Assembly: GCA_024811115.1 (NCBI GenBank) | Contig: JAKOGH010000002.1 | Span: 124,001 to 188,000 of the forward strand | Source of the DNA: Terana coerulea | Lineage: Eukaryota > Basidiomycota > Agaricomycetes > Polyporales > Phanerochaetaceae | Length of the DNA stretch: 64,000 nt | Direction of reading: 5' to 3' | Shown: piece by piece, positions 52,875 through 54,235 of the stretch | Layout of the letters: each line of letters begins with the position of its first letter | Position numbering within the stretch: position 1 is the first letter of the stretch | Position numbers and translations under genes: made by a program | The notes under the pieces: generated by a model | Database searches by the model: none | What the model was told of the DNA's origin: nothing | Seen by the model: the letters and a program-made list of their open reading frames with translations, nothing else

Positions 52875-54235
52875 ATGGCATCGTCTCAGCAAGACAAATC
52901 CGGCAGCTTGACTATTGCTGGTTCCGGAATTGCAAGCGTTGCACACATTACTCTCGAGACGCTTTCTCACATCAAGGGGGCTGAGAAGGTCTACTACGTA
53001 CTCGCCGACCCCGTCACCGAAGCGTTTGTCTTGGGCAACGCTAGTGGTGAATGCAAGGATTTGACGGTATACTACGACACGAACAAGGTTAGGTATGAGA
53101 CGCATGTACAGATGGCTGAGGTGTGTTCACTATTCTATGGAGCTTCCCGGACTTTACTAACACTCGTTCAGGTTATGTTGAAGGACGTCCGGGCGGGGCA
53201 TTCCGTGCTTGGTCTTTTTATGGGCACCCCGGCGTCTTCGTATCTCCATCGCACCGAGCGTTGGCGATTGCTCGTCAGGGAGGATTCGAGGCCCGTATGC
53301 TCCCTGGAGTGTCGGCCGAAGACTACCTATTCGCCGACCTCGAGTTTGACCCTGCAGTCAGCGGCTGCTCGACGTATGAGGCAACCGAGCTCTTGCTCCG
53401 CGACAAGTCCCTCGATACTACCACGCATAACATCATCTGGCAAGTTGGTGGTGTAGGCGTTGGTAACATGGTCTTCGATGTGCGTACTACTCGGTCTCAT
53501 GTAGTTATGCCAGCTGAATGTCAGACAACAACCGCTTGTAGTTCCACCTTCTCGTCGACCGACTGGAGAAGGACTTCGGGCCGGACCATCAGGTCGTGCA
53601 CTACATCGGAGCCGGTGCTCCCCCAATCCTCTACGGTCACCGACGCCTTCACCGTCGCAGATCTACGCAATGAAGATGTAGTCAAGCGCTTCAACCCATG
53701 CTCCACGCTCTACGTTCCACCTCTCACTCCCATCCGACTCTCTGAGACCATGGGCGCGAAGCTGGGCCTCACCGACAAGCACGGCGCGAAGATGAAGCAG
53801 CTCTTCCCGCCTCCCAAGTGGTCGAACAACGCCGAGCTGACAGAGAATACCACGTCGCCCTACGGTCCCTACGAGCAGAGCATCATTGCCCAGCTCGACA
53901 GCCACACGCCCGCTGAAGACCACCCAACCCTTTCCAAGGCTACGTCTCCGGCCATGAAGAAGCTCATGGTGGATCTGACCCTGGAGGTCGGCCTGCGTAA
54001 CAAGTATCGGAAAGACCCTAAGGGAGTGGTAGAAGCCACCCATGGTCTGTCGGAAGTGGAGAAGGCTGCGTTGTTGGCTGGGACGTCCAGTGCCGTCTAC
54101 GCGGTGATGAGACCTCCGCCGGGTAAAGAGATAACCGCGAAGAATGTAGAGAAGGCGAATCGGGATGCGTTCGCCCTCCCTCTGGTTCCTCCTCCACCTC
54201 CGGGTGTGGTAGTCGTCATCGTGGTAGCTGCCTAA
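52875..54235 (+). CDS. Borosin precursor: self-methylating alpha-N-methyltransferase fused to a core peptide
   Basis: ATG at 52875 begins a tetrapyrrole-methylase-fold methyltransferase: SGSLTIAGSGIASVAHITLE, MLPGVSAEDYLFADLEF, and LLVDRLEKDFG after an intron (about 53480-53541; an earlier intron lies at 53121-53171). A helical clasp-type region follows (YEQSIIAQLDSHTPAED). The protein ends with a short hydrophobic peptide, PPPPPG then GVVVVIVVAA, and TAA at 54233. This architecture is that of borosins (the omphalotin type), in which the enzyme methylates backbone amides of its own C-terminus, in trans within a dimer; the core is later cut out, often as a macrocycle. Val/Ile runs are typical methylation sites; the five prolines in front are unusual. 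Two one-base frame breaks are seen, near 53215-53219 (T run) and near 53614, so expression as written is doubtful unless these are errors. Confidence 0.85.

Follow-up and report, generated by a model that had tools for sequence, protein, structure and literature searches.

A borosin-family methyltransferase gene with a putative Val/Ile-rich core and two frame breaks in a Terana coerulea assembly

Does the gene at positions 52875..54235 (+ strand) of a stretch of Terana coerulea DNA encode a borosin precursor, that is, a methyltransferase fused to the peptide core that it would methylate, and could the gene be intact in the organism? The stretch, hereafter the window, comprises 64,000 nucleotides of contig JAKOGH010000002.1 (assembly GCA_024811115.1, positions 124,001 to 188,000 of the forward strand; the contig is called C2 below). 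A first-pass annotation made from the letters alone had read there one gene for an omphalotin-family methyltransferase ending in the hydrophobic peptide GVVVVIVVAA, and had concluded that the fungus produces its own type of N-methylated peptide. Judged by its homologies, the gene belongs to the omphalotin (borosin) family, a known family to which it adds a new member; its product and activity are putative. Its coding frame as assembled, however, is broken, and the residue at one key active-site position differs from that of its relatives.

A borosin methyltransferase domain in ordered pieces

The gene was searched piecewise against the solved structures in the PDB, and fungal borosin methyltransferases topped each search. 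Exon 1 (52875..53120, opening with the ATG at 52875 and coding for 82 aa of the N-terminal methyltransferase domain) matches MroMA1 with an E value of 5.2e-25 and dbOphM with 5.3e-19. Within exon 2, the piece 53201-53479 gives the strongest match (MroMA1, E 4.2e-41, 142 bits over 93 aa) and also finds, lower down, SonM of Shewanella (E 1.3e-18). Within exon 3, the piece 53542-53616 matches MroMA1 (E 1.1e-7) and the piece 53618-54232 matches MroMA2 (E 1.4e-20); the latter, 205 aa long and C-terminal, is collinear with OphMA residues 215-409 (chain 6tsc). The match of the short piece 53172-53231 to MroMA residues 83-102 is weak (E 0.006), with the right position and order and with differences beyond residue 98. 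All pieces are ordered and collinear with MroMA, dbOphM and OphMA along the whole length, and none of the five contains an in-frame stop. Since each piece matches fungal borosin methyltransferases in order, the family assignment is sound; four strong PDB matches, the best of them to MroMA, and one weak one bear out the annotation on this point, including the N-terminal similarity on which it had staked its claim beforehand. The N-terminal peptide alpha-N-methyltransferase domain of the OphMA kind, the mark of fungal fused borosins (types I-III), is thus present, in pieces. NCBIfam returned no informative family for three gene pieces.

The gene appears to consist of three exons and not of one uninterrupted frame, a structure drawn from GT-AG ends and from homology to borosins. 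Intron 1 (53121..53171, GT...AG, 51 bases) would separate codons collinear with MroMA1 residues 82 and 83. Exon 2 (53172..53479) carries the core methyltransferase motifs VMLKDVRAG, FYGHPGVFV and MLPGVSAEDYLFADLEF, the last of which had already been noticed in the annotation. Intron 2 (53480..53541, GT...AG, 62 bases) would lie between MroMA1 residues 185 and 189, in a loop whose length varies among the relatives, as the offsets of MroMA, OphMA and dbOphM indicate. MroMA1 has three extra residues in this loop; we read the shortfall of the window gene as variation in loop length, because the loops of OphMA and dbOphM are longer there. Exon 3 (53542..54235) holds the end of the methyltransferase domain, the clasp region, the C-terminal tail and the stop codon (54233-54235). 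GC content at third codon positions exceeds that at first and second positions in the long last piece (0.71 vs 0.62 and 0.45) and in exon 1 (0.61 vs 0.52 and 0.40), and is level with first positions in the main exon-2 piece (0.64, 0.44 and 0.64 for first, second and third).

Two frame changes fall inside these exons. In exon 2, the homologous frame that runs from 53172 (VMLKDVRAG...) passes at about 53205..53225 to another frame (FYGHPGVF...), with MroMA residues 83-98 in the one and 98-185 in the other. In exon 3, the frame from 53542 (FHLLVDRLEKDF...) passes at about 53608..53622 to another (LPQSSTV...), with MroMA1 residues 189-212 before and MroMA2 residues 214-394 after the change. The gaps at both points amount to a few bases only and are below intron size. 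Alternative splicing was rejected as a cause of the first change, since its two sides match adjacent MroMA residues and leave no room for an intron. With two frame changes inside exons, the DNA as assembled encodes no continuous precursor, and the continuous open frame expected of fungal fused borosins is absent from it. The earlier proposal that one gene encodes both methyltransferase and tail therefore holds for the homologous pieces in order, the ATG and the stop, and is not borne out for the frame as assembled, which is interrupted by two breaks and two predicted introns.

The active site and the C-terminal tail

The key Arg is kept in exon 1 (R73), and the residue four further is His77. 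Only four relatives were compared at this position (MroMA, dbOphM, SonM and a bacterial methyltransferase), and all of them have Tyr. MroMA1/MroMA2 (PDB 7twk, 7twl), a fused methyltransferase and the closest solved relative over exons 1-3, has similar active-site surroundings in the aligned pieces and differs from the window gene by this Tyr; the Tyr of FYGHP is kept in the window gene. In SonM, activity depends strongly on R67 and on Y71 four residues further on: R67A retains mere traces of it, and Y71F lowers catalytic efficiency about 98-fold, although its authors doubt that the Tyr itself takes the proton, because Y71F is still measurably active (PMC8429565). The pivotal residues of KchMA include R79 and Y83 (PMC11395268). 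His77 could reflect natural variation, an error in base calling, or damage.

The bacterial relative in this comparison (L031:1-774) comes from a metagenome-assembled genome of Hyphomicrobiales. It is a borosin-like methyltransferase whose 5' part is cut off by the contig start; it has no visible fused core and shares 57% identity with the window exon-2 piece in the best segment (81 residues matched).

The C-terminal sequence is LPLVPPPPPGVVVVIVVAA, followed by the stop. PPPPP (54188..54202) stands directly upstream of GVVVVIVVAA (54203..54232), which occupies the extreme C-terminus; both were read directly, as the first-pass annotation had read them. The Val and Pro codons of the tail are mixed, so it is not a simple DNA repeat, and no tandem repeats were called in window positions 51000-57000. 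The window holds, over all six frames, 550 stop-terminated frames of 60 aa or longer; of these, only the one with the borosin tail has at least seven Val or Ile in its final ten residues. Its position, its composition and the longer piece collinear with OphMA make GVVVVIVVAA a putative core, reached by a frame that is interrupted between domain and tail.

OphMA, the omphalotin precursor (PDB 5n0x, 6tsc and others), has the same domain order, is collinear to residue 409 and likewise bears a Val/Ile-rich core, WVIVVGVIGVIG (PMC9233826). The almost pure Val/Ile composition, which had been called unusual, is therefore ordinary for borosins. The beginning and the end of the core are another matter. 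OphMA, LedMA and DbiMA1 all have follower peptides (PMC12235650), whereas the stop comes directly after GVVVVIVVAA, and on the sequences compared it is the proline run before the core together with the missing follower that distinguishes the window gene from these three. The remark that the proline run is unusual stands to that extent, the comparison covering these three precursors. The dendrothelin precursor dbOphMA/DbiMA1 (PDB 6mjf, 6mjg) is otherwise a fused methyltransferase collinear with the window gene. SonM, a split type IV borosin, has a homologous methyltransferase with a separate precursor, SonA, and no fused core (PMC8429565), whereas the window tail ends the methyltransferase gene itself. 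A GVVVVIVVAA core was not described in those parts of the borosin literature that were searched, a search outside which the fungal survey of Quijano et al. 2019 lies.

Could the Pro-Val end be merely a hydrophobic tail on an intact methyltransferase homologue with some other function? The lack of any borosin match for the last 60 residues taken alone would fit such a protein, as would the missing follower, the lack of a recognised cluster and the His at the Tyr position. Yet the 205-aa piece runs collinear with OphMA as far as residue 409, the omphalotin precursor also ends in a Val/Ile-rich core (PMC9233826), and a tail of this kind occurs in one of the 550 window frames. We regard a tail of other function as improbable.

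Assembly error or decay

Whether the two breaks belong to the organism or to the assembly was judged from the chaperone genes in this assembly, presumed to be under strong constraint. The HSP70 gene of the window changes frame in mid-exon near 46641, without an intron. A second copy on contig C344 is continuous at the matching point, where the aligned copies differ by a one-base gap, and itself changes frame near C344:3162, where the C2 copy is continuous; two copies broken at different places indicate assembly error. Of 23 consecutive match pairs in Cpn60/TCP1 genes, 5 change frame across a DNA gap no longer than 13 bases. Two of these five are one site in two copies (C204 and C534), for which a shared cause is therefore possible. 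Across three duplicate contig pairs, the chaperone-gene spans of 1,924, 1,635 and 2,026 bases (5,585 in total) contain 2, 4 and 0 one-base gaps, some of which may fall in introns, and 15, 15 and 0 mismatches. At such an indel density, it is no surprise to meet two breaks in a coding sequence of about 1.25 kb.

The HSP70 gene lies at window 46070-48000 (- strand) and is of the mitochondrial type, as judged from its N-terminus; the C344 copy is 97-98% identical to it over the aligned stretches. Contigs C344, C204 and C181 duplicate parts of C2, C534 and C673, respectively, at 97-99.4% identity. These short duplicate contigs probably represent unmerged alleles or the other haplotype of a dikaryon.

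Because HSP70 and chaperonin genes show like breaks, assembly error is likelier than decay, and the two frame breaks of the borosin gene are, with fair assurance, errors on the scale of single bases. The alternative is a recently decayed borosin pseudogene, in which both breaks are real and the His marks an early functional loss. Two frame changes together with the substitution of a conserved active-site Tyr speak for it, as does the solitary position of the gene, cluster partners not having been found on C2 (for P450s, among 92 of 459 candidates). Against this stand the chaperone breaks, the freedom of all five homologous pieces from stop codons and the high conservation of the motifs, and we consider decay unlikely, while giving it more weight than any other alternative. 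Programmed ribosomal frameshifting could in principle restore the frame twice, and both breaks are small, which is all that favours it. It would have to happen twice, independently, in a single message, the HSP70 and chaperonin genes have breaks of this kind too, and the borosin family is not known to use programmed frameshifting; the idea can be set aside for practical purposes.

Peptide formation, release and the genomic setting

Taken jointly, the observations are in our judgement likely to be explained best by a borosin precursor whose breaks are assembly errors, whose tail is methylated by an interlocked dimer and whose peptide is then cut off by a host protease. OphMA works as a homodimer (PMC11285071). 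By analogy with that family, two chains of the window protein would interlock, and their active sites would iteratively methylate the backbone amides of the Val/Ile tail; a host protease might then cut GVVVVIVVAA from the clasp.

Several results weigh against this explanation. On the protein itself, Pfam TP_methylase scored 17.4 bits with the open frame, under its cut-off of 27.8, and a search of the genome with the same profile gave no match at the borosin locus. The last 60 aa alone matched no known borosin, and His stands where SonM has Y71. On the assembly, one of the three duplicate pairs is free of gaps and mismatches across the gene span, so indel errors are not everywhere. One copy of the borosin gene was found: a search of the genome with a protein piece and with DNA gave no second copy for comparison, and for that reason we infer the assembly errors from the chaperone genes. 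On possible partners, PF02897 (the prolyl oligopeptidase N-terminal domain) was found in the genome on contig C633 only and not on C2 (all five candidates scored), PF00326 gave 13 matches in the genome and none on C2 (all 20 candidates scored), and no P450 (PF00067) turned up on C2 within 120 kb of the gene, the stretch from 104 to 208 kb included, among 92 of 459 candidates. Since only these 92 were scored, the absence of a P450 near the gene is unproved. The earlier conclusion that the fungus makes its own N-methylated peptide loses force in view of the two frame breaks and of the His at the Tyr position.

The clusters of omphalotin, lentinulin and dendrothelin contain tailoring enzymes as well as a prolyloligopeptidase (PMC7878506). 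The gene for OphMA is clustered with those for OphP and tailoring enzymes, and the dbOphMA/DbiMA1 cluster has a prolyloligopeptidase gene; neither kind of partner was found around the window gene, and no oligopeptidase gene was seen beside the precursor. With no oligopeptidase found on C2, no P450 near the gene among the 92 candidates scored, and ordinary neighbours, the locus does not resemble a cluster of the omphalotin type. Open reading frames (ORFs) were listed for the window (at least 130 aa) and for the 20 kb beyond either end (at least 140 aa), and in these lists no borosin tailoring set was recognised, by Pfam on 27 ORFs, in addition to three pieces of the gene, and by eye on many others.

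How might a peptide be released by such a gene? The sole PF02897 gene found in the genome lies at C633:100348-102605, and one of its exons scores 117 bits with PDB 5n4b-5n4f vs 62 bits with OphP. We take these PDB entries to be GmPOPB, the listing naming them simply as prolyl oligopeptidase. Speculatively, a general oligopeptidase would cleave after the proline run. In one synthetic substrate set, GmPOPB favoured Pro over N-methyl Ala and N-methyl Gly at the position preceding the cleavage site (PMC12235650). As the follower is missing, the product would be linear; cleavage behind the proline run to give such a linear N-methylated peptide is possible, though speculative. Spelled out in full, the gene would be a stand-alone borosin for a linear, follower-less N-methylated oligovaline peptide, with PPPPP cut by the general C633 oligopeptidase and His replacing Tyr; the core would not be cyclised because it ends at the natural C-terminus. 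We think this complete scheme, as a whole, improbable.

The gene is of interest for its proline-preceded, follower-less core and its His, an interest lessened by its unsettled integrity. Should it be intact in the organism, it would present a follower-less C-terminal core preceded by prolines and away from any peptidase gene found, and so bear on peptide release by lone borosin genes; His77 would serve, in place of an engineered mutant, as a natural test of the active-site Tyr, whose role is disputed. A practical lesson is that, in indel-rich assemblies, frame-broken gene copies may pass as intact on a raw reading.

The neighbours of the borosin gene are housekeeping genes by Pfam: TMEM70-family, Tim17-family, LCM methyltransferase and F-box genes within 7 kb, the HSP70 gene at 46-48 kb, and a MIF4G gene. 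The 20 kb flanks beyond the window ends contain glutathione S-transferases and others. An Rfam scan of the window gave no match, and a sigma-70/terminator scan of it was uninformative, the host being a fungus.

Some further genes occur in local groups. At window 34602-38865 (- strand) lie three small membrane proteins that look alike by eye and form a local tandem family; Pfam gave no match for the two at 36702-37157 and 38434-38865. At window 2771-4582 (- strand) are two adjacent isoprenylcysteine methyltransferase-like genes, the first identified by PF04140 and the second by eye. Beyond the window end, L023:1545-4694 (C2:189545-192694) holds two adjacent glutathione S-transferase genes by Pfam and perhaps a third by eye. 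At C531:66510-77329, two further TP_methylase genes lie about 10 kb apart; in one of them, adjacent matches shift frame with a 2-base overlap, another sign of indel error.
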